Shown here one piece after another: positions 15,401 through 45,548 of a stretch of DNA of 64,000 nucleotides. The stretch covers positions 3,519,001 to 3,583,000 of the forward strand of contig NC_089736.1 of the NCBI RefSeq assembly GCF_035083965.1. The letters run 5' to 3'. The DNA comes from Branchiostoma lanceolatum (Eukaryota; Chordata; Leptocardii; Amphioxiformes; Branchiostomatidae). A model generated the notes under the pieces. That model made no database searches and was not told where the DNA came from. It saw only the letters and a list, made by a program, of their open reading frames with translations. Numbering within the stretch: position 1 is the stretch's first letter; every line of letters begins with the position of its first letter. The translations under genes and the position numbers were made by a program.

Positions 15401-15487
15401 ATGGTAGCAACGCGGGTGGTTCTGATGATGGGGCTGATGGCAGCCGTTCTGATGTCTGTTGCCTTAGCCTTCACCCCAGCGAGACTG
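15401..15487 (+). CDS. Signal-peptide exon of peptide gene A
   Basis: The ATG sits in a strong context (ACCATGG) and is followed by 29 codons with a long hydrophobic core and a small-residue end (SVALA). The donor is GTAAGA in phase 0. A longer open frame over the same bases (15130-15636) is in another frame and has no secretory character. Confidence 0.75.
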
Positions 15488-18400
15488 GTAAGATAGTATC
15501 CTCTCTTCCTATTGTAGTCATAACAACCTCATTTGAAATTGATTTTTTGTATGATGAAACGCTCATTTGGGCAAATGCACGCTGTTTTGTAACCGTACTT
15601 TCTTTTCAACAATTTGTTGCAAATAATTTCCAATGATATTGAATGTGTACACTTTTAACGTCATCTCTGTCTCTCATACTAATGATCTCTAAAATGAGTT
15701 TTCCAGATTTTCATGCGAAACAGTTTCTGGATATTCCATTTGACATATGAAAGAAAAAGCACGATTACATGTTCGTTTTTCATGTCCGTTTAACACTGGC
15801 CTAAATGTTATCCGTGCATGCCTGTCCATGTCCTCGGCTAGTTTAACGTAGCAAGGGCATATGACGAAAAATCACCGGTCTGGGTGACATTTACATATTT
15901 GCCTCATCAAATATCCCAAGCGATTTATTGAATAAGGATGTCTCTGTGGGTCAGGTAGTTAGGATAACGACATAAGCCCTGTTTGTTAGAAGCCTTATAT
16001 AGAGGGCCTTAGTCTTGTCTGGAGGCCTAAACTCAAAAGTCCCAGGGATTGCCTGGTTTAGTCGTCTCAATGCTTCTCACTGCAGAATGAAAAGTTAAAC
16101 CGCACAAGTGGGGAATGAAATATTTCCTAAAGACGACCACTTACCGAAAAGCTCATAATTTCCCTCAATTCTACAAGTTCGTGTTTTCCATGTTTTCTGG
16201 TAGTTGAATACAGCAAGAACACAAGGCGACCCATAAAAAGAATAGAAAAATTAACGGACTGGAATGACTTATTCATTTGAAGATTTAAGAAAAGGGTTTT
16301 GAATGTGCAATCCTTTGCCTTATCAAACAGTCCCAGAGTCTTATTGAACAAGGGTATCTTTTCGGGTCAGGTAGGTAGTTAGAGAAACGGCCCAAGCCCT
16401 GTTTGTTAGAAGCCCTGTCTGCAGGTCTAAGTTCAAATGTCTCTGGGTATCACCTGATTTAGTCGTCTCAATGCCTTTCACTGCAGGATCGAAAGTTAAA
16501 CCGCACAAGTGGGGAATAAAATATTTCCTAAAGACGGCCACTCACCGAAAAGCTCAAAATCACCCTTAATGCTACCCGTGTGTGCCTTCCCATGTCCTCT
16601 GCTAGTAAAATACAGCAAGGACACATGCCAAAACAAAATATAAAAATCAACGATCTGGAACAACATTTTTTGTCTAAAGATTTAAAAAAAGGTTTTGAAT
16701 GTGCAATCCTTTGCCTCATCAAATAGCCCTAGAGATTTATTGAACAAGGGTCTGGTAGTTAGAGCGACGACATAAGCCCTGTTTGTTAGAAGCCTTGTAT
16801 AAAGGGCCTAAGTCTTGTCTGGAGGCCTAATTCAAATGTCCCGGGGAATTGTCTGGTTTGGACGTCTCAATGCTTCCCACTGTTCACTGTATAATCACAA
16901 GTTAAACAATTGTGATAGAAATACTTTCTAAACATGGAAATAACCAAAAAGCTCAAAATTAACCTAAATGTACATGTCTTTCCATGTCATCGGCTAGTTA
17001 TATGGATCAAGGGCATTTGTATAACCCTTTGGCGTCAAAAAAGAAAACTTAAAGGTCTATGACGAATGTCCCAGGGGTTACTTAGTTTTGCCGTCTTAAT
17101 GCTTCTCACTGCAGAATCAAAAGTTAAGCCTAAAAAAATCCTGGGTAAAATCTTTTTCTACAGACAGGCACTCGCCAAAATCTCAAAAGCGCGTCTTTTT
17201 CTGATAGATAAAACATAGGACATCTGTAGAAGGATGAAAAGGTACAGTGACATTTGATCATCAATCAATGAGACAAAAAACCTTGGTATACCATACGTCA
17301 CCAAAGCAGATAGCTATATCAAAATTTTCAGCCTTATCGAAATATGTACATAGAGCCCTTGTTACTCTTCAAGCAAGGAGAAAAATTTTGACCATGTTAT
17401 ATCATGCCATGTAGCAAAATGCGCAATGGGTTAGAATATTCTATGTTATTTTTCAAGCGAGTAGAAGAGGTTCAAGGGTTATTATTGGCACACAAATTAC
17501 ATAATTTGGAGCTAGCCCTAATTCCGTGTCGTGTAAAACAAGACTTTCTAATAGAATAAAAGCAATATAATGGAAGACTTTGTTATTGTACTCTGACCAA
17601 GTTATCTTGATATATAAGATTATCCACAAATTGTGATGCGTCTTTAACCAAATTACTGATTATTAGAGAGCGTCTGGAGAACACTGATTTAATCATTGTC
17701 ATTATTTTGCAACAAAGGAAATTTTACTGGTGAGATTTCAAAGCTGCAACATTTTCTTGGCTTCTTGCCAGTACAACATTAGGTTGAAAGTTAAAATCCC
17801 CCCTATTTCTCTCTGTACTTAACGTAACTTAAATAACCAGGATGATATTTCTGAGAAGAGGCTCCACCCAGTGTAAACAGGATATACTCAGCGGATATTG
17901 GTTTTCTATGTTTTGACCATGTAAATATCAGGATGTGTTAAGCAAAGACACTGGAGGGAAAGAACACGCTCAGCACAAATACAGGAAAACGACGGTGCTA
18001 CCGTAAAAGACTGAAGAAGTAAAAGCAGCTAGAGTTCGGAGAACCTATGCCTTTATTAACTTGAAAAGTTCTTATTATCTGTGACAGTTTCAAACCAATG
18101 TTTTCATGTTGTCTCTGTCGAATTTCGACCTGCTCTACGTGTAAGTAGCCGATTTTGCTTTCTCGCACTCCATTGCAGATCAGAATATGGTCAAATGCAG
18201 ATTCATTCCTAGCAACATGGTAATTTCATTTCATTCGCCCTCAATCGTAAATTCTAATAAAGTAGATTGCGTACGATTTGTAATTTCAGTGTCTTTGGGT
18301 CATATTCAGTTAAGTAGCATACGCGGTCAAAAGGTTTATAGCTTACATATCTCATTATCATCAAATGCCGGATACTATTCTTATCTTTCAATCCCTCCCA

Positions 18401-21400
18401 ATTAACCCATTGATAAAGATCAAATCGAATGTTGCCGTCTAATGATAGCAGAGGGGTTATAACGGTAAAACGTAGGCGGAACTTTGCGTCAACTAATATA
18501 AGACGCACGTACGTCAACTAATGTAGAGTTTATGTTAACTAATGTATAATGAAGGGTCAACCAAATGAAAAATGCACGTCAACATGTAATATGCACGTTA
18601 ACTAATGTAAAATTCAGGGTCTTCCAAGAGTCCAACTAATTGGTTTAAAGGCCTTGGCCTCAAGCATGTAGCCGACCATAAAATCTCCATACCGCGGTTG
18701 GGAGTGTGCGGAAGGTCACCTGTGGATGAGAGTTTGGTGGGAAAGGTTGGCTCCTAGTTTAAAAAGGCTCCATCGCCAGCCGAATTTTGAAAAATCAAAG
18801 TAAAATAAATCATATTCTGATGATTGGATGCGAGTAGAGGAGCGAACTGGAGCTAGAATGGAATGGATTCCAGGCTACTCCCAACCCAGTGTCAACCTAA
18901 AGATCCTAAATGTGTGACATGGGACCATTTTCGTTGAACAAACGCAGTACCATCAATGGCGTCGGCACATTTAACACAATGCCGTCAGTATCAACTTACT
19001 GTCAAGTATACCAGTTCAAAGAATATCGTGTTCTATGACATATCACGACATCTAACCATTCAGCTAAGGAATGAATAACAGCTTGACTAATACAGCTTCA
19101 ATATCAAATCAAGTTTGAGTGGGTGCAAAAGTACCATGTGGTGAAATAATATCAACGTACTTAAAGAGTAACATTTGACACCTCCTGTGTATGCATTGGT
19201 ATCATCTATAAAGTACCGACAGGGCTAAACTTTGCACAGAGGAGAGTCGTGAAAGGGTTTGCGTTGGCGAGACATTTGGGAACGCATCGGGATATTTGTG
19301 CTTTTGCATTCGCACAGCCGATTATGCTTAGACCCAAATCCTTTCAACCTTTTCTGCTGGAGGACAGCTATTACAGTCTGAGAGTTCCTATGCCTCCCCC
19401 ACTATTCGCTTGCTTCTGTCAACTCATTCGTATATACGAGGGTGGTACAATAAGAAACGCCTTTTTTATCATAGATGGTTCATGTTTGTTTCCTACAATA
19501 ATTGTAAGTGGGCCAACTGATAATTAACTTCCCTTTTAATACCGTTTGCCTCCGACAAGCTTCCAAGGGTGTGGGAAACTTGAAGTCAACTTTTAATCGC
19601 TGGTAAAAATATAAAAAACACATTGAAATACTTCAGTCTGTAGAAGAGATGTTCTTTTACATTTGTGCCATATTTCAACTCATTTCATACAAAAATGAGC
19701 CTGATATTATAAAAAAGACGCTTTTTATTGTATCACCCTCGTATACGCCATCACGACACTCTTGCCAAGATAAACAAGACAAACGTTGTTTTTTCTACAT
19801 TCAAACTCTGCCCTATGCCAACTGTGACGTTTCTCCAATTGGGTTAGCTTTGCTGGGTCTTCCCTGCTGAGCTTTTACATTACAGACGTATCCACACATA
19901 TATCAAAGTGAGCCACCGTATTCACAGGCCATGAATGATGGCCGAGCAAGGCACGCAGAAAGAGATAGAAAGTTGCAGGTTTGAAACATAACCGACCAAT
20001 CAACCCTCCGACCACATGCTAGCCTGTTACCCCTGGCCTTTCAGTGTCTCTTTGTATGCACCAATTTGACGGCTCCAGGTCCCAGCGGATGGCAAGGGCA
20101 TGAGGAAAAGGTGCAGAGCGTCCTCGTTACCGGTGTAATTGCGCATGTGCCATATGGTACCGGAACTACAACGTTGACCTGCCTCACATTTCTTAAAACT
20201 CACTAACAGTGGGTCGTGCGAAAGTGACATCAACGGCAAGATGAACATCTTTCAGTTCCTTGTCATATCATCTGTGAGCGTATTTGACAGGCAAAACTGC
20301 TTTATTACACAGAGACCAAACGGCGTCGGTTACAGTATATCCTTTCTTGCAGATGTGTTGGAATCAACGGAGAGAGAAGGAAATATGCGTATAGCTAGCT
20401 ATCCGTTAGTCTCCAGAAGGAATGCACGAGCCCCGAAGCTGGGTTACTCGGAAGATAATATGTGGACCAATCAGAATGCGGCACCTTTTGACCACGCGAG
20501 TAACATATGGTCTTGATTAGCCCGAGATTCCCGGCTCCGCTGGAAATTATATCTCGCTTTTTCTAGAAGTCAAAGAGCGTTATGCAACAACGTAAAAGAT
20601 GACAATATAGTGTTGCCCAATAGCTATCATGATCCATGTCATAAAGTTCTACTTACATAACCGTTTGAGTGATATAGGGATATGCATGCAAAGTTATCTC
20701 AGCCGCCGTGTTTGAATGTGCAATCCTTTGCCTCATCAAACGGACCAAGAGGTTTGTTGAACAAGGCTGTCTTTGTGAGTCAGGTAGTTAGAGCGACGAT
20801 ATATATAGAAGCCCTGGTTGTTACAAGCCTTGTCTAGAGGCCTGGGTTCAAATAGCGCAGGGATTTCTTCGTGCGAATACATTACGATACTTAACCAAAA
20901 TAACAGAAGAAGAAGAAGACCATTATTGCGCGACAATTGCAGCAGGTACAATGTATGGCAGCATGATAATTGAACTTTTTCTAATAGCTAACAATTCTGA
21001 AGAACTTATCTAATACATGTATATGAATAACAAGAGACGATCTATCTAATAGTGCACATGCTAATGCCCTAGAACAGTATGTAAGTAACGTAAACAGTAT
21101 GCTGCATCAGGAATGTATAACGTCTCGTTTTTCATCGTGTTGTATATAAATTGGCCTCCATAAGTAGATATATGAACGGGGCATGATAATATTATGTTGA
21201 ATATCTTTGTCTTGGTATGACTTACGGTTATAGTTATATTTCTATAAGTTTTCTGCAGATAATCAACAGAACAGGATTCGCTCACCATGCCAAACACCTT
21301 TTGTTTTTCTTTTACGTATGATAATCAATTTGAACCCAAGTTTTGGAATTATCAATGATTTAATATGTAGCTTATTCTCGAACAATTTGTTTTTATATAG

Positions 21401-24400
21401 GTGCTTTAGTTTTTGCTACTTTTGTAAAAAAAAGTTTTTCTTAATTTCAGTCTTGTGTCTTTTGTACATCTTTATGTATATTTTAGTCGGAAACGTCTCA
21501 ATGTGCTTTGTGAAAGTTTTTATTGAATTTTGTATGTTGTCCAGTTTCCAGGGCTAACCCTTTGTGATAGCCTTCGGCTAGTTGGGTAGCCCTGGCTGTA
21601 CTTTTTCCACAGCCAAATAGAATACTTCCCGGTTAGATTGAGCCTGCACAATGTTATATTTGGTGTCCTAGGAAAATGCCCACCTATTCTAAATACACTT
21701 ATACTACTTGCAAAGATGTATATATTTCGAAGTAGAGACTCCAAAGTAGTTTCTTTAAAAGGATTTGTTTACTTTGTTAGAACCTGTTGTAAGTTGGAAT
21801 GCATTAAGGCACAGAAATGTCAAAAGGACAAAAAACATTTTGGGAAATTACACAATTATCTTGTTAATTAGGAAACACGTTTTGCAAACTGTTTTGGAAT
21901 ATTATTTAGGTTTTTGTCTTTACACCGTCTACATTTTATGTATACCTTTGTTTTCCTACTACATGTACTGTATTAGACTTGAAATGCAAAAAAAAAAAAA
22001 TAAATCAAATCAAATCATATCATTCGCTTTATATCAATGTATAGGAGCAGGTTGATGAGTCGAACACTGATGATGACTCATTGGAAGAGAGCATGCAGAA
22101 ACTGGAGGCTAACTTGGCTCTACGGAAAAGGTAGGGGAACCAGCTACGGTCATCTTATTGTTAGAGGAGTATATCACTTTGATGTGAAATAAACGTTGTG
22201 CAAAACTAATCTTGTAATGACGACAACTACAGTTTTATTCTGCTAAATGACACTCAAAACCCTTTTCCAAAACGAAATCGTATACACAAAAGCATCCTCA
22301 CCTCCTTTCACCTGCTTTTTCTTAATCTCGTTAACACATTTCCTAAGTATCTTTTCTTCACTTCCTTTTTCTTAAATACTATTAACGTCTTACGTCACTG
22401 CTAATGATAAGTTTTATCAAGGCCGAAATGCTCAGCATGCGCTACGCAACAGTTGATATAATCACGAAGTACGAATACTGAGACTGCATGGAGTCGGCAA
22501 TGTTTGACTGCACTTTGGAACCACCGTCTGAGAAGGAAAAGAAACAACACCGTTAGCGTCCATCTAGAAGATGAAAGAGCAGATACGTGCTGTTACGAAA
22601 GTGATAATGGGGGGCATGACTCTTTTGTACTGCAGGTAGTCATCTGTTGCCCGTGCCAAATGGAACCTGCTGAAAGTGTTGGACATGTTGATATTGCGGT
22701 TTGCGTACGAAATGTGCCCATGCTATTCAAGGGCTAATTCCGTCATGTATGGCGCACGATTTGCTTTTTAAGACGTCAATAAAGCGTATCTGTTTATGTA
22801 AGAGGATGGTGGCCAATGCTTTTTGTAAAAATGTCAACATGATCGTTAGTACAGAAAATTGCTCTTAAAACGTTATGCAGCAAAGTACTACTTCTTCAAG
22901 CAATCAGGTAGCTTTAGGACAATGCTGTGCACGTTTGAATGAGGAGTCATTTCTATGTGTATCTTTTACTGCAGTCTGGTGGAAGTTTTGCGAGAGTTTC
23001 TCGGAGAAGGACATGACACCAATAGCGTTGATAGCAAACGCTACGAACGCGTCAAGGTTTGTTGACCATGACTTTTTATCTGATTGTAGATATCCTTAGG
23101 AAACGTTACTATGTTTCCGATAGAAAGAATCAACTTATTTTTGACCAGATCTCTGGTCAGGGCTGGTTAACCCGATTGGTTAGAACAAAAAAATTGCAGC
23201 TTTTTTCTTGAGTTTTCCTTCATTCCATGCACATTCCCGAAAATTATAGGGCATATAGTCTAGACATACTTATAACTTTCTTTAACGATGGCTACAACAG
23301 TTTATTGAGCTTGCAAACACTGTAGTATTTTCCACTCCAAGGCGTGATACGGTTCTAAGGAACCATGAAAAATAACCTTTTGCACAATTCTCGGGTGTCG
23401 GTTGCCGTAAAAATGCCAAATAAGTTGACTCAATCACTGTCAAACTATACGACGCTTGACCCGAAGAGACCCACAGTTTGCAAAGAACACTCCGGGAAAA
23501 CTGCCAACACGGCTTGACAAACAGCGCTGAGTACCACGCCATGAATACTCAAGTAGAACTGAAATCTATAGTGCAACGCGCTGGCCCGAGCTTGGCCAGG
23601 AACCCAAATGTATACTTCATAATCTCTTCAAATGAGGTGGTAATCGATAACGTTTTCACCAGGAGGCAGTTGTCCTATATCATATAGTCTATGACTAAAA
23701 TAGCCAGAATCAACTAGTAGATGGAGTGCGTGTCTGTGATGATGTTTAACTAGAGACTCAATGAACACCACCCAATGATTGCAATCAGGTTTAGCAAACT
23801 AATACCCATGTCCAATTATCACTATCCCCGAAAATGACACCCACTTTGTGAATTCAATCCTGCCAAAATGTCTTTGATATCTCAGTTCTGGCATGCTTTC
23901 AGGAAAATCAATTTACTTTGGTGAAGCATCTTAGCAGCAGCCCAAAATATTATCATTAACTTGAGTGCATTTAGCTTTTGCGTCAGAATGGCAATTCTAA
24001 CATATACAATCTATAAGATCGTATGTTCTCGAGGCTACGGGGACTGGGGTATTGAGCTTCACAGCATACATAATCACATTGTTTCTCCTGGCTCTCAAGA
24101 ACCTGAAGACTACTTTATTGTATGTATCAAGCCCTAGGGTGATTGGGAAAGGATTTGATATCTGGTTAGATTTGACTAATTGAATCAGCTTACAACTGAT
24201 TGCATTGCAACTAAGAATTTTCCCAACCTAGTGGCAAATAATCTATGGTGCCCTTTCTTTTCGAAAAATCGTTTCGAGGATGGGGAAGACGAAATTTGTT
24301 TTTGCCAAGGGTATTGATTTTTGTAAATAAGAATGTATAGATTTAAGATTAAGATCAAGAATTAGATCTAACAATGCATAGTTTTTAAAAATCTAGATCA

Positions 24401-24856
24401 AGCAGCATTATAAAGAGTAGGAACTATCCTGGAGGTTGTTGCCCTATGTAGCACATGTATTAGAATATCTAAGGATTTTTGCGGGGGTGAATTATGAAAG
24501 ATGTGGATCTGCGTCCCGTGGCTAAGTCACATCTGTGCCCCCCCCCCCCATTTCAATAATGCTGTTCGACCGATCTTGACATGACGAAAAGTAGTGGATG
24601 CTACTTGAAACGTCTGACCGTTTCCAAAGGCATATCCAACTGCTTGAGTGAGTAACTGCTATTTGGCGTAGTTATTACCTGGATGTCTAACCTGCATCGA
24701 CGCATGTTGTTTTATGCTCATTTGTACTGATCCGTGGCCCGGGGCTAAGTCACATCTGTGCCCCCCTTAAATCATGTTGTTTTCTGCTCATTTGTGCAGT
24801 ACGCTGGCTGGAGGCCAACAGAGATGCTGTACACTAAGGGGAAGTGGGCGGCTTAG
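15401..24856 (+). CDS. Secreted neuropeptide precursor A (spexin/galanin-like)
   Basis: Four exons: 15401-15487, 22045-22130, 22975-23056 and 24800-24856 (TAG), in phases 0, 2 and 0. The 103-residue precursor starts with a signal peptide (MVATRVVLMMG, hydrophobic to ALA at about residue 23; ACAACCATGG start context). An acidic spacer follows (DESNTDDDSLEES), then a helical part with RK and KR sites, and the last exon YAGWRPTEMLYTKGKWAA. Cleavage at SKR would free a 23-residue peptide starting YERVK. The core W-R-P-T-E-M-L-Y-T-K-G matches spexin (W-T-P-Q-A-M-L-Y-L-K-G) at 7 of 11 positions and galanin's G-W......Y..G spacing. No cysteine pairs are present, and the C-terminus lacks an amidation signal. 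Linking the first exon across 6.5 kb is inferred. Confidence 0.7.
15898..17190. repeat. Degenerate ~400-bp tandem repeat (about 3.3 units) in intron 1 of gene A
   Basis: Units begin near 15898, 16312 and 16705, with a decayed fourth from about 17070. The order in each is TTTGCCTCATCAAA, TTATTGAACAAGG, GTCAGGTAGTTAG, AAGCCCTGTTTGTTAGAAGCC, GTCGTCTCAATGC, AGTTAAACCGCACAAGTGGGG and AAGCTCAAAAT. A single dispersed piece lies at 20712-20860. Confidence 0.8.
18480..18620. repeat. Short imperfect tandem repeat (GTCAACTAATGTA)n
   Basis: CGTCAACTAATATAA, CGTCAACTAATGTAG, GTTAACTAATGTATAA and GTTAACTAATGTAAAA recur at irregular spacing with GGGTC spacers, in intron 1 of peptide gene A. Confidence 0.5.
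18805..18880 (-). mobile_element. MITE fragment related to 30540-30660
   Basis: On the minus strand it reads TCCATTCTAGCTCCAGTTCG then CTCCTCTACTC. This matches ATCCTATTCTGGCTCCGGTT CGCTCTTCTAGTC at 30563-30597. Confidence 0.45.
20712..20860. repeat. Solitary fragment of the 15898-17190 repeat unit
   Basis: TTTGAATGTGCAATCCTTTG, CCTCATCAAACGG, TTGAACAAGG, GTCAGGTAGTTAGAGCGACG, AAGCCCTGG.TGTTA and GGCCTGGGTTCAAAT follow in the array's order. The unit is therefore an interspersed element that later became tandem. Confidence 0.7.
21300..22020 (+). mobile_element. Possible LINE-like 3' end with poly(A) and (AAATC)n tail
   Basis: T-rich sequence with GGGCTAACCCTTTGTGATAG and CCTTCGGCTAG blocks ends in a 13-A run and then AAATCAAATCAAATCA at 21978-22018. 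That is a retroposon-style tail, in sense orientation, about 25 bases before the acceptor of gene A exon 2. No reverse transcriptase frame remains. Confidence 0.4.
22045..22130 (+). CDS. Acidic spacer exon of peptide gene A
   Basis: The acceptor AATGTATAG is followed by EQVDESNTDDDSLEES and a helical KLEANLALRK stretch. The donor GTAGGG leaves phase 2. Acceptors 3 or 6 bases further on are possible alternatives. Confidence 0.65.
22975..23056 (+). CDS. Spacer exon of peptide gene A with KR cleavage site
   Basis: The acceptor CTTTTACTGCAG joins in phase 2 and gives S-LVEVLREFLGEG, then a short polar stretch, SKR and YERVK. The donor is GTTTGT in phase 0. SKR is the best prohormone convertase site upstream of the conserved core. 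Confidence 0.65.
24506..24799 (+). repeat. Local duplications ahead of the peptide exon of gene A
   Basis: GGCTAAGTCACATCTGTGCC occurs at about 24520 and 24742. CATGTTGTTTTNTGCTCATTTGT occurs at 24704 and 24772 (N is A or C). The second copy of the latter ends in the true acceptor GTGCAG; the first reads GTACTG and is dead. Confidence 0.7.
24800..24856 (+). CDS. Peptide-encoding last exon of gene A
   Basis: The acceptor is CATTTGTGCAG. The exon encodes YAGWRPTEMLYTKGKWAA and a stop. It aligns with the last exon of gene B (45477-45548) over W-R-x-T-E-M-x-Y-T-x-G-K, with the intron at the same phase-0 position just after a lysine. Confidence 0.8.
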   Translation, partial: YAGWRPTEMLYTKGKWAA

Positions 24857-25537
24857 TGTCACTCCGTCAGATGGGACCTCCTGCTGATGAAGATAGCTTT
24901 CTGACCAGGCAGAGACGACTATTCTCGTGTACTTTGTTTATTGGTAGTCTGTAACAGTTATAGTTTGTAGTAGAGTTTATTGCAGTTCGCTCAAACAGCT
25001 GCTTGATAAATAGAAACTTCGCCTTAGGATTCTTTATTCATTATAATGACAACATACTCCATATAATGTTGATGAACGTTTGTCAAAGGATAAGAAGTAT
25101 CTTTTCGTAGTGATTAAAAGAAGTATCGTATTCTAGAATGGCATAGAGGTAATCTTGATATCTGCAAGACGCCAGGGTTCATGCTTATGCTACAATGCAT
25201 ATTGTCTATATATACTGCTATCATATATCTACAAATCATCTTAGCATCTTGACACATTCACAATGGCGCTCGAAACGATTGGCTTGTCTATTCAGCATAG
25301 AAGCATAGAAGACTTCCAGATTTACCTACTTGGAAATATTGTAAGATTCTGGTGATATTGTGTCTTTTCCTTTATTTCCAGTTTTATCAATATTGCCTCT
25401 CAAAATGACAGAAGAATCAAATATGTAATGTAATGCCACATTTGGATTCAACAAACAATACGTGTTCTGCTATCTCACATTACTTTTACCTCAACAAAGT
25501 GAGTTGTACGTAGTGACGTTGTATGTAGCAAAATTAG

Positions 25538-25543
25538 AATAAA
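25538..25543 (+). terminator. Candidate polyadenylation signal of peptide gene A
   Basis: AATAAA in TTAGAATAAAGCGC, about 680 bases after the stop codon. Confidence 0.4.
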
Positions 25544-28900: not shown

Positions 28901-28912
28901 CGAACTTTTATT

Positions 28913-29132: not shown

Positions 29133-29139
29133 TGTCGCC

Positions 29140-33586: not shown

Positions 33587-33769
33587 TAGCCGCCATAGCA
33601 GGCTCTCTGGGTCTTTTTGGGGTTTATAATACACTTTCGCTGATGACTCATTTTTTCCCGGGCCATACGGTTACGGGCTGGCTGCACAAACGAGCAAAAA
33701 ATAATAATTAATCAGCAAAGGTGTATTATAAGCGCCCCAAAAGGTCCAGAGAGCCTGCGACGGAGGCTA
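33587..33769. mobile_element. Palindromic MITE, hAT-like, with target-site duplication
   Basis: The left arm TAGCCGCCATAGCAGGCTCT then CTGGGTCTTTTTGGGG is inverted on the right (CCCCAAAAGGTCCAGAGAG then CCTGCGACGGAGGCTA). The element is flanked by GCGATTGT on the left and GCGATTGC on the right, a 7-8 bp direct repeat as hAT transposases leave. A half copy sits at 9698. Confidence 0.75.
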
Positions 33770-34307
33770 GCGATTGCACCACACCCAAAATACTCTAATT
33801 AGATTACACCATTAGTCTTCGTCATTTTCTGGATCCGCTCAAAGTCTGTTTCCTCTGACGCATGACCGATGGTCGATAGGTAATTAGGCATGTGATATGC
33901 ATCTGCTTCCAGTAGAATTTCTAGGTTCATAAATGACAATAAAAGAGTATACTAATTATAATGGAAGCAGGGGCTAGAATCCACAAGAAGGAAGTGGAAA
34001 GAAGACCCTGGACTAAAGAGTCAGCTTCGTTCCTCTTACATTTTCTTTTGCTAGAATAGACAAAAGTATAGTAAAAAGATGATAAAAGACTTCATAAGCA
34101 AAGAAGGGAACAGGCGGTAAAGAAAGTCACGTCTACAAGATGAAAGCGGAAAGACTATTTGGGACTAATTAATGAGCTAGTTTCGTCCGTCTTCTTTTGT
34201 TAACATAGACGAGAAACATGGTAAAAAGAGAAGAAAATACTTCACAAGGAAGAAAGGAACAGACGCACATTGGGACAAGAAACGCACATCCTTTTTCTGA
34301 ATCCCAT

Positions 34308-34523
34308 TGTGCGTATATTCATGTGCGCATGATCATGAGTTGCGTTATAATATTTTTTTTTGTAGCTTTGGTAAAGTTTGCGGGGAAGAAGTTGTTTTCT
34401 ACTTCAACACACCGCCGCGCAGCCTGGTTATCGAACCAAAGAAATTACTTTTTCAGCCGCAAACTTTACATAAACCAATGTAAATATGCAACTCATGCGG
34501 ACTTGCATATACGCACGTGTGAG
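34308..34523. mobile_element. Palindromic MITE-like element upstream of gene B
   Basis: Left GTGCGTATATTCATGTGCGC ATGATCATGAGTTGC...GTAAAGTTTGCGG is inverted on the right as CCGCAAACTTTAC...GCAACTCATGCGGAC TTGCATATACGCAC. Identity of the ~80-bp arms is moderate, so this is an old copy. Confidence 0.6.
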
Positions 34524-35048
34524 GGGGCTTTAAGACGTAGGTAATTAATGACTGTGATCTGTCGATACGGATTCAGATCAGCCGGAACGGACCCAGGCCT
34601 CACACAGAAAACCAATATAAAACCAAAATATCAATGGTCTACAGCAACAATAAGTCTCGTTTTTGATATCATCATCTTAACCGAAATTAGGTTTATGGCT
34701 AGAACAATTAGGCCACCAATTCTACCCATGGGTTCAATGGTCTAGACAATACTGTTGATGAGAAAATCCAGACCAAAAGTAAACTTTAAGAAATGTTTGC
34801 TGAGGAGTAACATAAGCGCCTCTAACCCCCATGACGAGTTATACATTCAGATTCAACGACAAATTTGTTCATAGATTAGTCCTTATTGTCTAGCAGATTG
34901 TCTCACGAAGCTACGGTGGTTTCTCTCGAGCCCCTGATCTTATGAACCTGCGGATCATCCACCAGATTGGCTAAAAGCTTATCCCTCCCTCTCTTAACAA
35001 ACAATAAAAGACCGCGCATACAGTATTTCCCTATTGGTCCATTAGGCT

Positions 35049-35151
35049 TATAAAGGGGACTCACGGGTCGTTTGCGCTTGCAGTAGCCCATATAACCGTT
35101 CTCTCTTCATCATCACCACCAGAACAAACCCGCGGAACCCACAGCAGAGCG
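35049..35151 (+). promoter_or_regulatory. TATA-box promoter of peptide gene B
   Basis: GGCTTATAAAGGGG carries TATAAA at 35049-35054. A start about 30 bases downstream (near 35080) gives a ~70-base leader before the ATG at 35152. The leader also contains acceptor-like AGs at 35122 and 35144, compatible with an alternative upstream first exon. Confidence 0.55.
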
Positions 35152-35241
35152 ATGGAGCTTAAGATGGCCTCACCGGTGGCTATACTCATCATGTTCCTGG
35201 TTTTCTTCTCAGCGACGAGGTGTCGAAGTTTGGCCAAGCCG
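35152..35241 (+). CDS. Signal-peptide exon of peptide gene B
   Basis: The exon encodes MELKMASPVAILIMFLVFFS then ATRCRSLAKP. Signal cleavage is expected near ATRC/RS. The donor is GTAAGA in phase 0, like the first exon of gene A. Confidence 0.8.
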
Positions 35242-38200
35242 GTAAGAGAAACTTTACATATATGTTAATATTTTAATCCATAATATGATCAAATGAACGA
35301 AAGGAGATCGTACGAACCCTCCCATAATGCAAGCAAATACATCACAGTGTATCAGGCAAGAATTACGTAAAATGTAAAAATTGTATCTGCTATAAACGTC
35401 TGTGCTAGATCTTGCCAAAGGGTTTATAAAAATGCCGTGCTTTAGAAACAATGAAGCCTCTTTGACTTTGGTTAGGAACTATTGTGTAAAGCTGGGATCG
35501 TTATGCTTATGAGGTGTCGAAGAGGAATTCCAAGTATTTTTTTTTACCTTTGCCAAGATGGTTATGTTTTAGTGGGGTTGATATGTATGTATGTATGTGT
35601 GTATGTTAGTGGGTGACACAAGTAGCTATGGCTGGATTGTCATAGATTGTAATATGTGGCTAGGTTCTGGACCTATGTTTTGGAACAGGTAAGGAATAAT
35701 TGTTTAAATCTCGATGCTTAACATACTTTTCATGTTATTTGTGAGAACATTATTCTTAATTGTTAAGAGGACAGTCAATTTTTGCCACATTTAAAAAAGG
35801 GCATACTTGTAGACATAACAGAAGAACTTCTAACTTGTAGAATAATGCTCAGATATCACAGAGACGCATTTTGATGACGGACGCATGTACATCATATGCT
35901 CATGCAGAACGACGGAACCAAAAACGCTACCATTAGCTTTCAACCCCTTCCGAAAATCCCCGCAGTTTTCCGCGCAATTTGTCCTTCTCAAATAGCAGGC
36001 GTTTTCCAAGTGCTTCGGTCTCAAACTGTGCGAATCGTTCCTGTGCAAGCATGCCTATTTTTCTTGCGGTGAACTCCACGAGCTGATTCGTGCGGAACCG
36101 CCACAGCGCTAACATGAGACCTTTTGTTAGAACGAGATGACACGCCGGCGGTAATGGGAAGGTGACTCGCCCTTTGGCAGAGATGTATGCAGGGAAATTT
36201 CAGGTTTCGTAGAAAAGTGTCCTGTTTCCATTTTGTCGCAACATGAACAGAACGCACAGCTGGGATAATGGGAAGAAAGCATATTGGACATTTATCTTTT
36301 TTCTGAGCTAGAAAGTCGAAGAATGTTGATTTCTTACAAAGGATTTCAAGACATTCTTCTTCGAATTCTTTTCCCATGTCGAAGAATTCTGGTCTCTGGA
36401 AAACATCCAAGTCAATCATTAACGTATAACAGCTCTCACTTGCACTGTGCATTCTTTGTCATTTTTCTTGGTACGGTGTCTGAATACCAAATTAATCCAC
36501 GTCTAGCACCTAAACAAATCATGACAACTTTAACGTCCAAAAACAATTTGAGTATTCATGATCACAAGTTCTGACGCACATAAGATTGGTAACTCTGAAA
36601 GATACTATTTAATGTTTCAATGTTTTAACTGATGGAGTGACAGTTACTCTCATTTCGTAATGACACTGTTATTTATGTGGCGCCAGTCTAATGATGCCCA
36701 TGATCACTTGATTGCCATCTTTATTACCTGGTCCATACGGCTGTATTCAATCAACAACATTATTGGACCATAACTTCACCACAGGTCATTAAGCGCCAAC
36801 CAACCCAATAAAATGATGCACACGATCTAGGCGTCACTTTAAGTATCTTAGCTTTGGTAAGTTGAAGGTTTTTTGTCAGTCTGTGCGGAATTGCTATATT
36901 AGAGGTAAAGAAAACGAACGTTAGGAAAGGTGAATACAACGGAATGTGTATCATGCTAAACTAATTACTGCGCAAACATATGATGCAGTGGAAACTGTCT
37001 AGAGGAAACAGTTCGAGCTGATTATAACACAAAAATTCAGCCTTCAAAGAAAGAGTCAGCTTGGCAATATCTTACCCCGATATATAGGGTCGCTAGGGCT
37101 TACAAAGACCAGGAGATTCTCTCAGGCAGATTCAGGAAATATGCTGAACTCTTCTTATATGCAGTAAATTCAGGGACTGCTGCCGGCTGAAAGTATCGTT
37201 CTGCACGTCGTATCAAAGTTAGCCCAAACGTTTGGGGACTCGAATTACATTACCAAAACCGAGGCTTTTAGTCCATAGATATGCTCCTTTCAACAGAAAG
37301 ATAGCGGAACAATTATGAAAAAGATTGTTTAACACCGTTTTCTGGTTTTCATAAGCCGCACTAGGGAGGCCTAAAAGCCCTCTGTGATCCGGCTGGGAAT
37401 ATCAGTCCTTTGAAGTGACCCACTGAGTAATCTGTCTAAGTAGAGCCCACCCGCTGATCAGGGTAGAAGGGAATATCTGTAATCTTTGCCACCGAGGCGT
37501 TAGGAATAGTCTGCTTTGTGAAGGACTTCTTGATCTCCTTCAAATAACCAGCTACATGTACGTGCGCTATCAATTCATTTCAAGCCATCCAGTGACCGTA
37601 TCACTGCGTAGATTAGCCATGAATGATGAAGTACATGGAACCTAGCGAGTCGGCATAACGTATGTTCTGAGAAGGTATCAATTTTTAGACAGTAAAGTGT
37701 ACTAGCAAAAATAAGATTGCTGTACTCGATGTTATATGAAAATTTGAAATTTACTTCCGCTATTGTTTAAGGCAAGTTGATTTCGTCATGGCACAAGAGA
37801 AGGTAGACGAAAACAACTAATCGTTAACTAAAACACTACAATTTTTTTTTCAGTTCAGCTCTATCATTTCAACCTCTCAACATATAAATCATCTATATAT
37901 TCTACAATTTTGTTAAACTACGTTTTTGGCGAGCCTTTCATGCTGCACTCTTCAGTTTAGGCTAAGGGAAAGAGCATAAATTTAATCTTACGCTGTCCTA
38001 TATTCGGCTGAAAAAGAGCATTAATTGGATACCTATGTAGAAACCAACCGTGATTCCCAAATTACCGGACTTGAAAGCAAATCTTCACTGCCTCTTGGAT
38101 TCTAAGAATTCCTCTCGGATTTTTTGAAAATGCGTCATCGGATTTTTTCATACCTCCTGACAAACATCTGCCCCCGCACCGGAAGTCCGATGACGTCAAT

Positions 38201-41200
38201 CAAGCGATGGACAAATAAAACTGGACAAACATCACATGACCCTGCGGTGGGAATGAGCAAGTCTCTTTCAGACTTGCTTATCTGGTTATAGGCAGAAAGT
38301 TTGCCAGTGGAGTTTGGCTATCATAGAGTCTCATTTGCCCAAGCAGGGGAAATGCTAACCTTCCGGCGGACTGACTGTCCTGGCCAATTATTTACCCTTT
38401 TTGGGCCGGATCCTACGGTCAATGTTTACGTAGGAAGGTTTGACGGAGGAAAAAAGAAATGTTCAAAATTCCAACCCTGTCTGTAGTGATGTGACCACTC
38501 AAATAAAATTGTCAAAATTGACATGTGGTCACTGTATATGGAATTCTTAACAATGCTTGGGTAAATGGGAAAGATAATATAAGGGATCTCCAAAAAGTGG
38601 CAACAATGACCAGGTGGTCCTTATGCATAAGAGGAGACTATCAAAGGTTTTATTGTATGTTACACATTTTGACAACATAATCCTCCAGCGTCTCACGTGT
38701 TGGAAAACGTGTACTATATATGGTCTCCGTTGGTCAATATTGACCATTGTAAAATCCTAATTCACATCAGTACTACAGCATCGGCTATGACTAAGCAACC
38801 CTATTGGAAAGATGTTACAATCGACATTATAGGCTCAATTGAAACAAAACAATGTAACTTTAACAGCGTCTTTGTAACAATGGCACCCAAGATACACCCA
38901 AGTAACGACGTTAGTATACACAGGAAAAATGTCAAAACTCATAAGTACCTTATTAACTAAGATTAAACTTTTCATCCAACACTGTAAAGAAATTGGAACT
39001 TACCCAAATTTTCGGTTGAGAAATTTGGGTAAGTCCCAATTTCTTTACAGTGTTGGATGAAAAGTTTAATCTTAGTTGATAATGAATTCTGCCAACACAG
39101 ATGAACTTTCATCATAAGTACATGCTAACCTTGAGGAAGTATTTGCAGATATAGTAAATCATTGTTCAATCTTATCTGCCAACTAGCTTCATTCAGCTAA
39201 TACGATTGAGTACATGTAGCCTTTGTTTAACCTTTTCAATTGACAATTGGAAGAAACAAGTAACATCATTCTTGTAATCTCGCCGTATGACGCACATCAC
39301 CATTGAAATGATATGAGTCTAATTTTTTTATTTAATTGTATTTTTACAATGAAAAGACTTCCATAAGCGCCCAAAGTCACAACAAAAGAAGAAAAAGCGC
39401 CTGACATGTCATGTAATTTTGTAATGAGTCTTGGAAATGTCTTAAGGGTTTTAATGACGCATTTGTTTAAGAAAGTGGTGACGTAGGTAGGATTTTGAAT
39501 GCCGTGCACGCCGCTGATGTCAAGACTATTTCTGACAAATTTGACGAATCATGATGCCCCTAAGCTGTCTTTATAAGCTGTTCAAGTTCTTAGGATATGA
39601 TACACACATGTAGTTGAGACCTGATGATCTTAATGTCTAGATTTACACTTTAACAAAATTTCTTGCAGTAGAATAAGAGATGTAGATACTGGAACCTTTC
39701 TAGAGACATATATTTTGTATTCAACCCTTCCAAGATAAACTTTTCACCCTTACTCCGTCCACATTGATAAAAGTGACAACTAGCAGAGAACCGTCAATGG
39801 TAACCTGATCAAGCATGGTGAACCTTCGCATATGATTGGGCTGATTACGGTAACGTTTTTATTTCTAGTAAAATAGACAGCAATCTGCTAAACAGGTTAT
39901 AAATCCGTTTCAAAAACAGGCCAAGGAAACTTAATGTATTTAGTAGATGCGCCTCTAAAATCAGTATAATTATGTTCAGAACCAGGTCCAGGTAAATGTG
40001 TGTTTGTCTGCGTGTGGATGGTGTTCAGCACCAGGGATAGGAATATATGTGTGTATGTGTGGTAGCACCAAGGACAGGTATGTATGCCTGTGTGTGTGTG
40101 GGGGGGGGGGGGGGGTCAGCACCAAGGACAGGTATATTTGTGTGTATGTGTGGTAGCACCAAGGACAGGTATGTATGCTTGTGGGGGGTGTTCAGCACCG
40201 AGGACAGGTATGTTTTCAGTGTGTGGTTGCTATTCAGCACCAGAGACAGGTATATTTGCCTGTGTGTGGATGGTGTTCAGCACCAAGGACAGTGGGATAC
40301 TGTCAGAGAAGCCTAGGGACATGTGTATTTGCTTATGTGTGAAGTGTTCAGCACCAAAGACTAATTGTCAACTGTTTTGCCTGTGTTTAGATGTTGTAGT
40401 GAAATCAACAAGAATCTATTTTTTATCTTCTTGTCGTTGTCAAACACACCTGTTCACATGTGTTAATGTGGTGTAATAAGCATATTCATTTGATCAGTGT
40501 GTTCAACCCCTCATACTTCTCATAAGTGCTAAGATAGACAAATGGTCATTAAAATACGCGACAATATTGCTTACTCACACGTTTTCTTTCCTTCAACTTC
40601 AGCAAGAGCTTCTGGACAGACAGATTCAAGAGTTGGTTGAGGCCCTGAGCGACCAGCCCTCCCTCTGGTACAACTATGACACTGAGGACTACGAGCCCAG
40701 GATACCTGCGGGCCACTTCTCCAGGAACTCGAGAGCGCAGGAGCGCAAGCAGAGAAGATTTGTGTTTCCGGGGCTTCAGGACTTGTTTCAGAGAGCCAAG
40801 GTAAATTTTCATTCTTTTCGTTACCATTTAGGGCTACTTTTAATGTCATCTCGGTTTACAAAGTATAGCATCATGTTGGGGTAGCGATTAGGGTGTTTGG
40901 CCCAGAACTAAGAGGTTCTGGCTTCGAATACCCTGACAATGGCCACCAATAATGTGCCATTGGGAAAGGCAATTTAAAAGACTTTTCTCACTCCACCCAG
41001 GTGACAAAAATGAGTACCTGTTTTCGGTTTGGGAGGTAAAAGGTGGTGGAAGGAAAGTGTTGGGCCCGCCTCCCAATACCATGCATTGGACACTGTCAAT
41101 AACGGCCAACTGCTCCCAACGACCTCAAAAAGGCTTTGGGACAACCTGTACATCAACTTTTTTCAAGGCATACAATCAGCCAAAGACTATGTTCTCTATA

Positions 41201-44200
41201 CCATTGTGAAGCGTTTCTGTGGGGTTTGTTGTGACATGTGCACCATGACGGCAGCTAGGACAATCACGGAGCTACGCATAATCGGCTTGTTCTTATCAGA
41301 AGACATACACGGCCCATGTAGCTCCTTAGGACACTAATGACTAGATATGTCTTAAACGGAGACAAAGACTTCTGTGAAGTCAATATTGAAAGAAGTCCGA
41401 GGATGAAACGAGCCCTTCTCCCCGGAGCAAAAGAAGTACTTTGAAGCTGCCAAGTCCTATTTGCAGAAGTATCTATTCGTAAAGATCGCTAAGGGCACAG
41501 AGGAAACCCGGAGCGTTTAAAGATGCAGACACCCAATAACGATAAAGGTCCCTGAGCTGGACAATCCCCTTTCGTACGTTTACTTTTCTTTTCCCCATTT
41601 GTCGTCTTAAATATCGCAAACCTTTCCTTAAGTTACATAACGTTCAAAGAGGAATGACTCTCATCATTCACAAAAATGTGAAAAGGCTACATTACTAACA
41701 GGTACCACTTTATTTAACAATGTTTCAGATCATGCAGGCAGGTTAACTACATACAATCACAGATAACCTAAGAAAATCAAAGACATATATATTGATTTCT
41801 CAATGTAATCCTCCTTCCCATCTACAGCATTTTCGAATACCACAGAGAATATCCTCCTTTATTACACGCATCGTGGGTGTTTGGTCTTTCAAAGGAGACC
41901 ACCTGAGGCTCATACATTATGATTGTGACAAATTACGCCGAGTATCCTCTAGAAATGAAATATAGTGATGATTTGAGCATAAAAAATACACTATATCCAA
42001 CAGCTGTTGACATATACAATATCTGAACGTATTCTCTGTTAAAATGTGGTTTAGCTTTGCATTCGCTTGAAAGATCATTTTTGTTGGTAGAATGCATTAT
42101 GGAAAAAAGGTCATTAAACTGCAATTTTCAACAGAAAAATGGATCCGACTGTTTTGAAGTTTCGTATTTGGCTACCTATATCTAACATCTCTTTCAAACC
42201 CATAGAAATCTCTACAATATTTTAAAGCAAAGTAAATCTAAACTGTAATTTTATAACATATGATAAAATGTATGCATAAGATGACTCCATTGACAAAGAC
42301 TAAATTTGTACAGTAGAAAATTGTGGCACGTCCATTTTTTGTGTTGGAAATTACAGTTCAACTTAATTTCAGAATGTTTTCCACTAACCCAAAGGACGTT
42401 ACAAGCTAAGAGAAAAAAAAGTCTTATTTTCGCTGACGAAGGGAAAGATGAACTTACAAGCTAAGATTTTTTTTAACGTTGGCATCAAGAGTAAGACACT
42501 CCTTGGTTTAACCATCACTATTACACAGTGGCACTCCTTTCAATCAGAAATGCAAGAGGTGTGGGTGGTAGAGAGAAAATGCCCTGTGGTGCAAGTGTTT
42601 CCCTATTGGAGAATCCTTTGTCAGGCAGCCCACACTAAGTGCACGGGAAGTGCAGTCTAATGAAGCAGATAAGTATGATAAACGACTGCTACATGCCCCT
42701 CTCTTTGATGTACCCAGCTCAGCATTAATAGCCCATTTGAAGGCAATAGTTGCCCCGGAGCATGACTGAAGTATGAAATCATCCAGCTTTGCCAAAGGGC
42801 TGGGCGTTGACAGCACAGAGCGGTCTACAGTTCTATGTCAGGGATAGAAATCATTTTTGTATACCCTTGAACTGTTGTATGTAACATCTAGCCTCTACAT
42901 GGCTCCACAGGCCGCTGCAAAATAAAAATAGTAGAAATTGGCCAAATAGAAAGATTCCTAGGTCTAAAACTACCTGGCTGTTAATTACAAAGGCATGTTA
43001 TCAATTTGTCCAATTTCTGCTATTTTTTCAGCGACCTCTGGAGCCTGGTAGAGGCTATGAAATAAACAAAATCATTAGCAACAGACAAGGGCGTTGACAG
43101 CAGAAAGCAGTTAACAATCTTCCATCAGGGTTTGAAATAATTTCTCTGCATACATACACTGCTGCATGTTAGAGCCAAAATTACCTTCAAATTATTTATT
43201 TTCACAGGTATAGTTACAACCAGTACAATAGAAAACCCACACTTAGAATTTATATACATGGACTGATGCAGGTTTGTTGCAGGTTACTAAGACATGCACA
43301 ACTCCAATTTTACGTGGAACTAAGCCTCAGCTACCTACAACTGGAACTGTATTTGTAGGTGGTATTTTGAGCCCTGTCTATGATTAAGTCAGTAGCTAGA
43401 TAGCTGAACTGAAATGGAGTTAACTGACATGATCTTATACATACTAAAAGTTTTCCTTATCGCTATCTAAACCAAGAAAATGATCATGATCTAACAGTTG
43501 CAAAGTGCTAAAATACAGATAACATCATAATGATGATCTTAGCGAGTATTGTCAATATGATAAAATAAATCATGGTTCTTGGTGGCAAATGTGTAAATCT
43601 TTGTGCATCAAATCCCTGTGTTTTGGGCACCCTTGAGACAGATTAGCCAAGAGGCTCTGTGGGTGTCACTCCACTGTCATGACTCATGGTAGGAATATCG
43701 TGTTAAGTGCCTTTTCCAAGGGCACAACACTGGGGCATGGCAAGGGTCGAACCCGGGACCTATTGGTTCTGAGCCCAACGCCCTAATCATTACGCCATAG
43801 CTATACCATTATGGTAGTTCTGTATGGTATTCCGTTATTCATATTCATAAACCCCAGAGGTGCTGGGTTTAAATCCTCTGCCCTAGAAAAAGGAAGGGCA
43901 CTTTACACAACATTTCTCACTCCCGCTGGGTAAAGATGGGTTCCTGACTTCAGCTGGCGGGGGGGGGGGGGTGTTGATTGGTAAAAGGTGGGTAGTAGAA
44001 GAGGGATGGGCACCGCCTTCTAATACCGTGCCTTGGACAACATGGATAACAACCTAGTGCCCATGTGGCCTCACACTATGAACACTGTACTACCTTTATT
44101 GCATCTTATTCATAGTGCATGCCATGAGCTCCATGCCAAGCATGCGTCAATGCTTGCTATAGACAGCCCTTCTAGGAAAAGACTTAAGTGGTCAATATAA

Positions 44201-45548
44201 ACGCCATTTATGTCCATATGGAGACAGCATGCGGTGAAATTGGGAAGTTGCTGGCTGTTTCAACCTCAAAGTAAACCATTCGTCAACTGTTAAAAGGGAT
44301 TGCATGGGTGCTGCATTGCTGATATTCCCCTTTCTCATCCCATACTATACACTCTTGTATTAGGTAGATTAGCCTAATATAACTGAAGTTATGTACCAGT
44401 ATATGCCATACTTTGTACCTTGTAAAGTTGTTGTGCAATAAAGTTATACATTCTGCAACTAGTGCTGTATATAGGGGAAGCGTGTGTTTTTCATAGGTCA
44501 TATTCCACATCCGTTTGCGTGCTGGGGAAAATGGAGACCTCTGTTTGCGGTAAACCAAATACAAGGTGTAACAACCAGACAAAACATGCACATGTTGCAA
44601 ACAAGATGTCGTGGTAATCATTCAGTTGAACTGTTACCCATAATTCTGATATTTAGAATATTACAAACAAGACCACACAAACTAGTGTTACCTATTTATA
44701 CATGACCATGAAATAACACTATAATATCAAGCAGACAATGTATATTTCATACAAAAGTTGCAGAACATATGACAAATTAGTTTTGTCAGTTCTAATTCTT
44801 TTAACCTCACTAGGAACAATATGAAAAGTAATCAATATTTATTGCCGAACAACCTTGAGATCAATTCAAAATGGCTTAGAGTGAAGCTGATCTGTGTGCC
44901 TAGAGGACTTCAGCACTCAACCCAAACCATCACATTAAGCATTTATGTTAGCTATTTATAAACCTGTGGCACTTTTCCTCTGGAAGACAGTTTATTATGG
45001 ATTAAGTTTCAGGAAATGGATTACATTAAATCCCAACAGTCAGGGGAAACTCTTAATGCTTGATTCCTTTTAGAGCACACAGTGTAAGGATGATGATATT
45101 CATACAAAGAATTAGGATGTACAGTGCATGTGCACTTCTGCCATTCTATCCAAAGTTTGCATGAGTGGGAATGGGTCTAAAACATCACACAAGCTTGTTT
45201 TGCTCTCTGGAAAGACAATGCATTTTACACTGTGGCAGAGCTAAAATGTGCAGCAGTTGGCAGGACACTTTCACAGAAATTTAACTACACTTCGAAACAA
45301 AAAATGCAATTTGACAAACTTTCACCTCTTTCCACAACATTCATTTGGATGGAATGACCCTTGACATTTGACCCTTAACCCTGTTGACTTACCTGACATT
45401 ACCTATACAGCTGTACAAGGTACACAGTATAAGGACGTCATTTGCTGAGAAAAATATGTATTCTTTTATGTTTCAGTTGGCTTCTGGCGGGAACCCGTGG
45501 CGAGTGACTGAAATGATGTACACCAACGGGAAAACAGGGCGAAAGTGA
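35152..45548 (+). CDS. Secreted neuropeptide precursor B (spexin/galanin-like, with orexin-like features)
   Basis: Three exons, all phase 0: 35152-35241, 40603-40800 and 45477-45548 (TGA). The 119-residue precursor starts with a signal peptide (hydrophobic VAILIMFLVFFSA, residues 9-21). A helical acidic spacer follows (QELLDRQIQELVEAL), then an aromatic-acidic stretch (WYNYDTEDYEP), a strong RKQRR convertase site, and a 34-residue mature peptide starting FVFPGLQ. The peptide ends NPWRVTEMMYTNGKT followed by GRK, an amidation plus cleavage signal. PWRVTEMMYTNGKT-GRK aligns gap-free with spexin NWTPQAMLYLKGAQ-GRR, and the precursor is close in size to vertebrate spexin (116). The upstream part resembles orexin-B. 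No cysteine pairs are present. The family is uncertain; secreted amidated peptide status is strong. Confidence 0.8.
35545..35700 (+). repeat. Copy of the TTACC/TATGTTTT dispersed repeat
   Basis: TTACCTTTGCCAAGATGG, TTATGTTTTAG, a TATG microsatellite, and GCTATGGCTGGATTGTCATAG. Same order as at 1108-1245. Lies in intron 1 of peptide gene B. Confidence 0.6.
36021..36452 (-). other. Unassigned minus-strand open frame (143 codons)
   Basis: The frame is the longest unexplained one on this strand inside the gene B intron. It holds an acidic helix-like start and KKDKCPICFLPIIPAV. A second frame (35933-36115) overlaps it and looks helical (ARKIGMLAQERFAQFETEA). Together they could be a frameshifted, decayed transposon or pseudogene, or simply chance. 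No promoter or splice support was found. Confidence 0.2.
38191..38198. promoter_or_regulatory. Perfect CRE-like palindrome TGACGTCA in intron 1 of gene B
   Basis: The context is CCGATGACGTCAATC. CREs commonly drive neuropeptide genes, but this one lies 3 kb downstream of the start and a single 8-mer can occur by chance. Confidence 0.25.
38950..39082. repeat. Near-perfect long inverted repeat (62-bp arms, 9-base loop)
   Basis: The left arm 38950-39011 and right arm 39021-39082 pair at 60 of 62 positions, with loop TCGGTTGAG. The arm core is AAGATTAAACTTTTCATCC then AACACTGTAAAGAAATTGG. The two exceptions are 38954/39078 (U.G in plus-strand RNA) and one A.C in plus-strand RNA, which is G.U on the minus strand. 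This could be a very young palindromic MITE or a hairpin-RNA locus. Confidence 0.9.
39985..40345 (+). repeat. Minisatellite (CAGCACCAAGGACAGGTATGT)-type units, with a poly-G run
   Basis: About seven units of 40-65 bp carry CAGCACCANGGACAGGTAT then TTG(C/T) and TGTGTG stretches. A 14-G run interrupts the array near 40101-40114. Open frames here are repeat artefacts. Confidence 0.9.
40603..40800 (+). CDS. Spacer and peptide N-terminal exon of gene B
   Basis: The acceptor is TTCAACTTCAG and the donor GTAAAT. The 66 codons include the RKQRR cleavage site and then FVFPGLQDLFQRAK. PGLQ....QR...ASG, continuing into the next exon, equals orexin-B PGLQGRLQRLLQASG at 9 of 15 positions. Composition is GC-rich against AT-rich introns. 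Confidence 0.85.
40880..41107 (+). mobile_element. tRNA-derived SINE, diverged, just after gene B exon 2
   Basis: A head GTAGCGATTAGGGTGTTTGG then CCCAGAACTA with B-box-like GGCTTCGAATACC precedes the body AATGTGCCATTGGGAAAGGC, CTCACTCCACCCAGGTGAC and GGGCCCGCCTCCCAATACC. It starts about 80 bases into intron 2 of gene B. Confidence 0.7.
43600..43802 (-). mobile_element. tRNA-derived SINE, inverted
   Basis: On the minus strand it reads ATGGCGTAATGATTAGGGCG TTGGGCTCAGAACC...GGTCCCGGGTTCGACCC, with clear A and B boxes. The body GTTGTGCCCTTGGAAAAGGC ACTTAACACG follows. Confidence 0.8.
43855..44085 (+). mobile_element. SINE, 5'-truncated
   Basis: It starts within the tRNA part (GGTGCTGGGTTTAAATCC). 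The body GGAAGGGCACTTTACACAAC, CTCACTCCCGCTGGGTAAAG and GGGCACCGCCTTCTAATACC follows. It faces the inverted copy at 43600-43802. Confidence 0.7.
45477..45548 (+). CDS. Peptide-encoding last exon of gene B
   Basis: The acceptor TTTATGTTTCAG is followed by LASGGNPWRVTEMMYTNGKT, then G-R-K and TGA. The glycine donates the amide and Arg-Lys is the cleavage site. The intron lies right after AK, as in gene A after VK. Confidence 0.85.
   Translation: MASGGNPWRVTEMMYTNGKTGRK

Follow-up and report, generated by a model that had tools for sequence, protein, structure and literature searches.

Two neighboring genes in the DNA analyzed here (a stretch of 64 kb, called the window), which we refer to as genes A and B, are almost certainly real tandem genes for neuropeptide-type precursors, and the core of the peptide encoded at the end of each resembles vertebrate spexin. 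Judged from their sequences, the two peptides may well be spexin-like ligands of lancelet galanin-type receptors; homology with spexin is suggested but unproven, and we have not filed the genes as spexins. Gene models rebuilt from splice signals, ahead of any database comparison, give gene A four exons (103 aa) and gene B three exons (119 aa), both on the + strand, with GT-AG boundaries at every intron and an open frame throughout (Table 1). The product of gene B is identical to Hypp8656 of Branchiostoma lanceolatum (P0001; 119/119 residues, 100%), and that of gene A differs from Hypp8657 of the same species (P0003) at 2 of 103 residues (98% identity). This protein identity to B. lanceolatum marks the window as lancelet DNA. 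The rebuilt models also reproduce the last-exon coordinates, translations, and core alignment given in a preliminary description of the region.

Table 1. Exons of genes A and B, with the precursor parts that each exon encodes (positions are those of the window)
Feature	Position	Strand	Content
Gene A exon 1	15401..15487	+	Signal peptide MVATRVVLMMGLMAAVLMSVALA (judged by eye), then FTPARL; donor gtaaga; protein match
Gene A exon 2	22045..22130	+	Acidic pro-region EQVDESNTDDDSLEESMQKLEANLALRK, helix-prone by eye; 2 bases of the following codon; aligned in P0003-P0005
Gene A exon 3	22975..23056	+	Pro-region; dibasic KR 23036-23041; then YERVK 23042-23056, predicted mature-peptide start
Gene A last exon	24800..24856	+	YAGWRPTEMLYTKGKWAA-stop; core WRPTEMLYTKGK at 24809-24844; without C-terminal amidation site
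Gene B exon 1	35152..35241	+	Signal peptide MELKMASPVAILIMFLVFFSATRC (judged by eye), then RSLAKP
Gene B exon 2	40603..40800	+	Pro-region; multibasic KQRR 40747-40758; then FVFPGLQDLFQRAK 40759-40800, predicted mature-peptide start
Gene B last exon	45477..45548	+	LASGGNPWRVTEMMYTNGKT-GRK-stop; core WRVTEMMYTNGK at 45498-45533; amidation/cleavage signal GRK 45537-45545

Gene B shows all of the general features of a peptide precursor, namely, a signal peptide (by eye), basic sites, a conserved mature segment, and a C-terminal Gly-basic end; gene A has the first three and is missing the Gly-basic end. The amidated-peptide type assigned to both genes in the preliminary description thus applies to B, which closes with GKT-GRK-stop, and not to A, which closes with TKGKWAA-stop in the window and with T[KQ]GKWAA in all three database relatives and so carries no amidation signal. 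The same description was accurate in finding no cysteine pairs: the product of gene B carries one cysteine, within or adjoining the signal peptide, and that of gene A carries none. After KQRR, the coding sequence of gene B runs through FVFPGLQDLFQRAK, a phase-0 intron, and LASGGNPWRVTEMMYTNGKTGRK-stop, and its pro-region is longer than that of gene A. A TATA-like site (TATAAAG) lies at 35049, ahead of gene B exon 1, and no such site is present in the 250 nt preceding the gene A ATG. A PDB search with the gene A peptide returned 0 matches.

Genes A and B are separated by 10.3 kb, and in both a phase-0 intron follows a Lys before the last exon. Across six frames of the 64 kb, the pattern W..xxM.Y..G has exactly two sites, which are the two last exons. 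When the window is scanned with core A, the second-best position is core B (score of 54, versus 25 for the next), and when it is scanned with core B, the second best is core A (54, versus 28 for the next). The unique pattern and these reciprocal scans rule out chance resemblance between the two last exons, and a tandem, same-strand pair of related secreted-peptide precursors, as originally proposed, is borne out. The 36-nt cores are identical at 25 of 36 bases, with matches at 9/12 first, 11/12 second, and 5/12 third codon positions; since the differences fall mainly at third positions, they indicate selection on the protein after duplication. The duplication looks old. None of 13 direct-repeat families joins the two genes, and there is no direct repeat of at least 40 nt between them.

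Relatives of A and B occur in B. lanceolatum, B. floridae, B. belcheri, and a hybrid assembly, with intact reading frames across the lancelet sequences, and the consecutive serial names Hypp8656 and Hypp8657 fit adjoining genes. Only 1 of 23 columns of the predicted gene A peptide varies among three sequences (window, B. floridae, and hybrid assembly), compared with 24 of 80 upstream columns (Fisher P = 0.012). The last 37 residues of gene B show no differences between B. lanceolatum and B. belcheri, compared with 14 of 83 upstream columns, gaps counted (P = 0.005). Both counts come from small samples, and both point one way. Lack of core conservation between lancelet species had been named beforehand as one observation that would refute the proposal; at the protein level the core is conserved and the proposal is not refuted, with the mature segment conserved between species and between the A and B paralogs while the rest varies. 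Pseudogenes are ruled out by the database protein matches together with the conserved mature regions. The matches are named only as Hypp, uncharacterized, or hypothetical proteins, and the full-text literature searched makes no mention of the core strings, LOC118405786, or Hypp8656, in keeping with the earlier view that the genes are undescribed. Within the portion of the literature searched, no spexin outside vertebrates was found; a sea urchin genome paper that names spexin once (PMC10855541) and an allatostatin-A review that names it five times (PMC9263205) may bear on novelty.

The case for spexin begins with the peptides themselves: SPX1 is NWTPQAMLYLKGAQ followed by GRR, and SPX2 is NWGPQSMLYLKGRY followed by GR (sections of PMC6593056 and PMC12560929). 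We scanned all six frames of the window (127,900 positions) with SPX1 and SPX2 queries of 17 residues, GRR included. With SPX2, exon A ranked first and exon B second (scores of 40 and 36, versus 24 for the next position); with SPX1, exon B ranked first and exon A second (34 and 33, versus 24). Scores against a comparison panel of 96 neuropeptides were evaluated with 10,000 shuffles. The 23-residue gene A peptide scored 45 with SPX2, 41 with SPX1, 29 with tilapia Spx1b, and at most 26 with the remainder (family-wise P = 0.0003). SPX2 was likewise the best of the 96 for the 16-residue gene A core (family-wise P = 0.0002) and for the gene B core (score of 31, family-wise P = 0.045), and a joint A+B profile gave P = 0.0002 against the panel.

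Residue by residue, the core of A shares W-x-P-x-x-M-L-Y-x-K-G with spexin (B. floridae A has Q at K11), and B shares W-x-x-x-x-M-x-Y-x-x-G, with GRK where spexin has GRR; W2, M7, Y9, and G12 of spexin are present in both. Vertebrate spexins for alignment were fetched with a blended profile (A3) containing one SPX2 row and two blended rows; this search is circular and served solely that purpose. Of its 25 candidates, 5 were lancelet proteins, and each of the other 20 either bears the name spexin or spexin-like or has a PF15171 match. An alignment of 12 vertebrate spexins (11 of the 20 fetched plus the human sequence) has 11 invariant columns, made up of the core plus G15 and R16. Gene A matches 7 of these, gene B matches 6, both match 4, and one or the other matches 9, a total reached by 0 of 400,000 column shuffles in a test uncorrected for the choice of spexin. 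Tilapia Spx1b, which is outside this alignment, deviates at positions 4 and 7. P4, L8, and K11 are retained in A only, and G15 and R16 are retained in B only, as if the two genes were keeping different parts of one ancestral peptide. Lancelet cores aligned against vertebrate spexins with hhalign fall in register (P = 0.00025, probability of 43%). The lancelet precursors are also predicted to be secreted and, at ∼100 residues, are of spexin-like length. Their last intron, phase 0 in both genes, lies 8 residues before the Trp in B and 4 in A. SPX2 proteins are available from two Podarcis lizard species (P0010 and P0011), and a signal-peptide block of 26 residues is missing from P0011; apart from this block, the two differ at one substitution and in their C-terminal ends. 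The block difference suggests that lizard SPX2 has an exon junction 8 residues upstream of the Trp, the same spacing as in B, in a comparison drawn from proteins of two species.

Positions 2, 9, 10, and 12 are common to SPX1, SPX2, and galanin (PMC6593056, in part), and of these A and B retain 2, 9, and 12. Trp2, Asn5, Gly8, and Tyr9 of galanin are described as crucial for GALR2, with Trp2 and Tyr9 conserved between galanin and spexin (passages of PMC7108740); A and B retain Trp2 and Tyr9, and Asn5 and Gly8 are missing from both, as they are from spexin. A shares G1-W2 with galanin and GALP, and both A and B share W2, Y9, and G12, but neither has the LNSAGYLLGP stretch, and the galanin start GWTLNSAGYLLGP does not occur in either. 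Galanin proper is ruled out by a 12-mer galanin scan of the window, which fails to pick the two exons (ranks of 26 and 74). A and B would share receptor kin (the kisspeptin/galanin group) with the kisspeptin-type peptides of lancelets but differ from them in having no RF-amide C terminus and in the context of the tryptophan. Four kisspeptin-type precursors have been reported from B. floridae (PMC9400282, in part).

The main rival reading is a neuropeptide family restricted to lancelets or cephalochordates, with its own receptor, in which the likeness to spexin would be convergence in a short tryptophan-tyrosine-glycine peptide. We regard it as a substantial possibility, short of probable, and several results favor it. 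Searches with the A or B precursor, which require shared exact words, returned no relatives outside lancelets: 2 of 3 candidates were reported for the B query and 3 of 7 for the A query, all of them lancelet. The Pfam spexin model PF15171 matched none of the five lancelet proteins, neither of the two window gene models, and neither of the two peptides, with a human spexin control at an E value of 3.8e-52. A vertebrate-only HMM run against the 5 lancelet precursors and 10,093 decoys yielded nothing significant; the best lancelet E value was 8.8, below 19 decoys, the five precursors ranked 20, 22, 269, 1089, and 1162 of 10,098, and shuffled lancelet sequences scored higher. In the reverse HMM search, bare SPX2 ranked first and SPX1 fourth, and 21 full spexins fell at ranks 11 to 174 among decoys. 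Further results count against spexin itself. Over full precursors, hhalign returned a probability of 10%. Scanning with a 12-residue SPX1+SPX2 core without GRR placed exon A first and exon B third; in local scans with bare peptides, 5 (SPX2) and 8 (SPX1) positions stood above exon B, and 6 positions outscored exon A in a local scan with tilapia Spx1b. Nine contact residues were named in a docking study of mouse spexin (PMC8285161, in part), of which A retains four (Trp2, Leu8, Lys11, and Gly12) and B retains two (Trp2 and Gly12).

The layout of the precursors is also unlike that of vertebrate spexin. In the spexin layout the peptide comes soon after the signal peptide and has a tail behind it. 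The lancelet peptide sits at the precursor C terminus with nothing after it, whereas a C-terminal tail follows the peptide in all 20 fetched vertebrate spexins (including P0011, which is without the signal-peptide block), and the lancelet genes have one or more extra pro-region exons. Within the spexin motif NW[TG]PQ[AS]MLYLKG, Q5 and L10 are both replaced by T in A and B. The GRR-type site after residue 14 is missing in A (WAA-stop), with GRK in register in B, and the lancelet peptides would be N-terminally extended if cleaved at dibasic sites only. Genes neighboring KISS, GAL, and SPX in their paralogon are GOLT1, LDH, KCNJ, and GYS. A Pfam search run for synteny on 10 of the 121 window open reading frames (at least 75 aa) found none at the family cutoff and weak subthreshold matches only.

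Against a lancelet-only family stand the ranks of the two exons, first and second in the 17-residue scans with both SPX1 and SPX2; the 9 of 11 invariant columns, which are in register and retained in complementary fashion by A and B; and the family-wise P value of 0.0002 for both the A core and the joint profile. The preliminary description named no relative of the pair; given the resemblance of the core to vertebrate spexin, we do not favor a new family, which is nonetheless the chief rival.

An orexin/allatotropin-type precursor, suggested by the resemblance of the N-terminal half of the gene B peptide (PGLQDLFQRAKLASGGN) to orexin-B and of the EMM in the core to insect allatotropin, is improbable. 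The best panel match of the gene B N-half FVFPGLQDLFQRAKLASGGN (40759-40800 plus 45477-45494) is indeed human orexin-B, through PGLQ...QR...ASG (score of 39, family-wise P = 0.0015), and the whole predicted gene B peptide scores higher with orexin-B (39) than with SPX2 (31; P = 0.011). For the gene A 23-mer, the best nonspexin panel match is orexin-A (26), and insect allatotropin scores 25 with gene A. However, orexins end in GNHAAGILT[LM]-amide, with cysteines in the A type, and this C-terminal motif is absent from the A and B products. Annelid and molluscan allatotropins, moreover, are not known to retain the EMM of the insect form. Two orexin precursors with four cysteines are known from B. 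floridae (PMC4772807, in part), and the lack of a cysteine pair in A and B rules out a known lancelet orexin; an internal gene duplication is the presumed source of the separate A and B orexins of vertebrates, with a single orexin peptide in invertebrates (PMC10987541, in part). That the genes are nonfunctional, whether as gene-prediction artifacts or as decayed copies, could draw on the uninformative database names but is very improbable given the intact frames across lancelets, the conservation of the mature segments (Fisher P = 0.012 for A and 0.005 for B), and the divergence of A and B at third codon positions.

We propose A and B as spexin/galanin-type ligands from the spexin geometry of their C-terminal core (W2, M7, Y9, and G12). 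The signal peptide would route each precursor into the secretory pathway, and a prohormone convertase would cleave after KR in A or KQRR in B, perhaps with an optional further cut following the single Lys that both have just ahead of the last exon. In gene B, the terminal GRK would be trimmed and its Gly converted to a C-terminal amide. The likely products would be YERVKYAGWRPTEMLYTKGKWAA, with a free-acid end, and FVFPGLQDLFQRAKLASGGNPWRVTEMMYTNGKT-amide, or else shorter peptides beginning YAGW.. and LASGGNPW... Calculated monoisotopic [M+H]+ values are 2804.434 for YERVKYAGWRPTEMLYTKGKWAA, 2129.064 for YAGWRPTEMLYTKGKWAA, 3858.957 for FVFPGLQDLFQRAKLASGGNPWRVTEMMYTNGKT-NH2, and 2212.064 for LASGGNPWRVTEMMYTNGKT-NH2. 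The peptides would bind galanin-type GPCRs of the lancelet, making their main contacts through W2 and Y9. More tentatively, A and B could be the cephalochordate spexin/galanin ligands, a tandem pair that predates genome duplication and supplies candidates for the missing ligands of non-vertebrate galanin-type receptors, with A (GW...P..MLY.KG) as a living galanin-spexin intermediate. Kim et al. in 2014 are said, in papers citing them, to have inferred just such a tandem pair as the ancestor of KISS, GAL, and SPX, before genome duplication. The lancelet pair fits this ancestral KISS/GAL/SPX picture (PMC7044129, in part). If the spexin link is true, a lancelet pair with a spexin pharmacophore would place the root of the spexin/galanin system earlier than the vertebrates, offer concrete peptides for deorphanizing receptors in lancelets, and reveal how the precursor became rearranged; if it does not hold, there would still be two peptide genes in lancelets that are conserved and unnamed.

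Elsewhere in the window, a tRNA scan found 0 genes. A K/E/P-rich open frame of 427 aa at 1704-2984 (+), with possible exons at 1-294, 3544-3774, and 4561-4989, is probably another gene; it matches no Pfam family at the cutoff and has 0 PDB relatives at E values up to 1. Around gene A, intron 1 contains several repeat copies at 15882-17130 (∼400-nt spacing, 65 to 85% identity), the last-exon acceptor falls within a 46-nt direct repeat (70-nt spacing, 76% identity; window positions 24703-24818), and a second short repeat pair lies near the last exon (24506-24543 and 24729-24766). Intron 1 of gene B has an Rfam match to the microRNA precursor mir-2060 at 40219-40290 (+), at 64.3 bits against a gathering threshold of 54.5. 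This match sits in a tandem repeat with a 76-nt unit (40107-40292) and may be either one of the repeat units or a microRNA that arose from the repeat and has the peptide gene as its host. The same intron holds a near-perfect 62-nt inverted repeat at 38950-39082, whose arms are 9 nt apart and 97% complementary; the long hairpin that it forms is perhaps a small mobile element.
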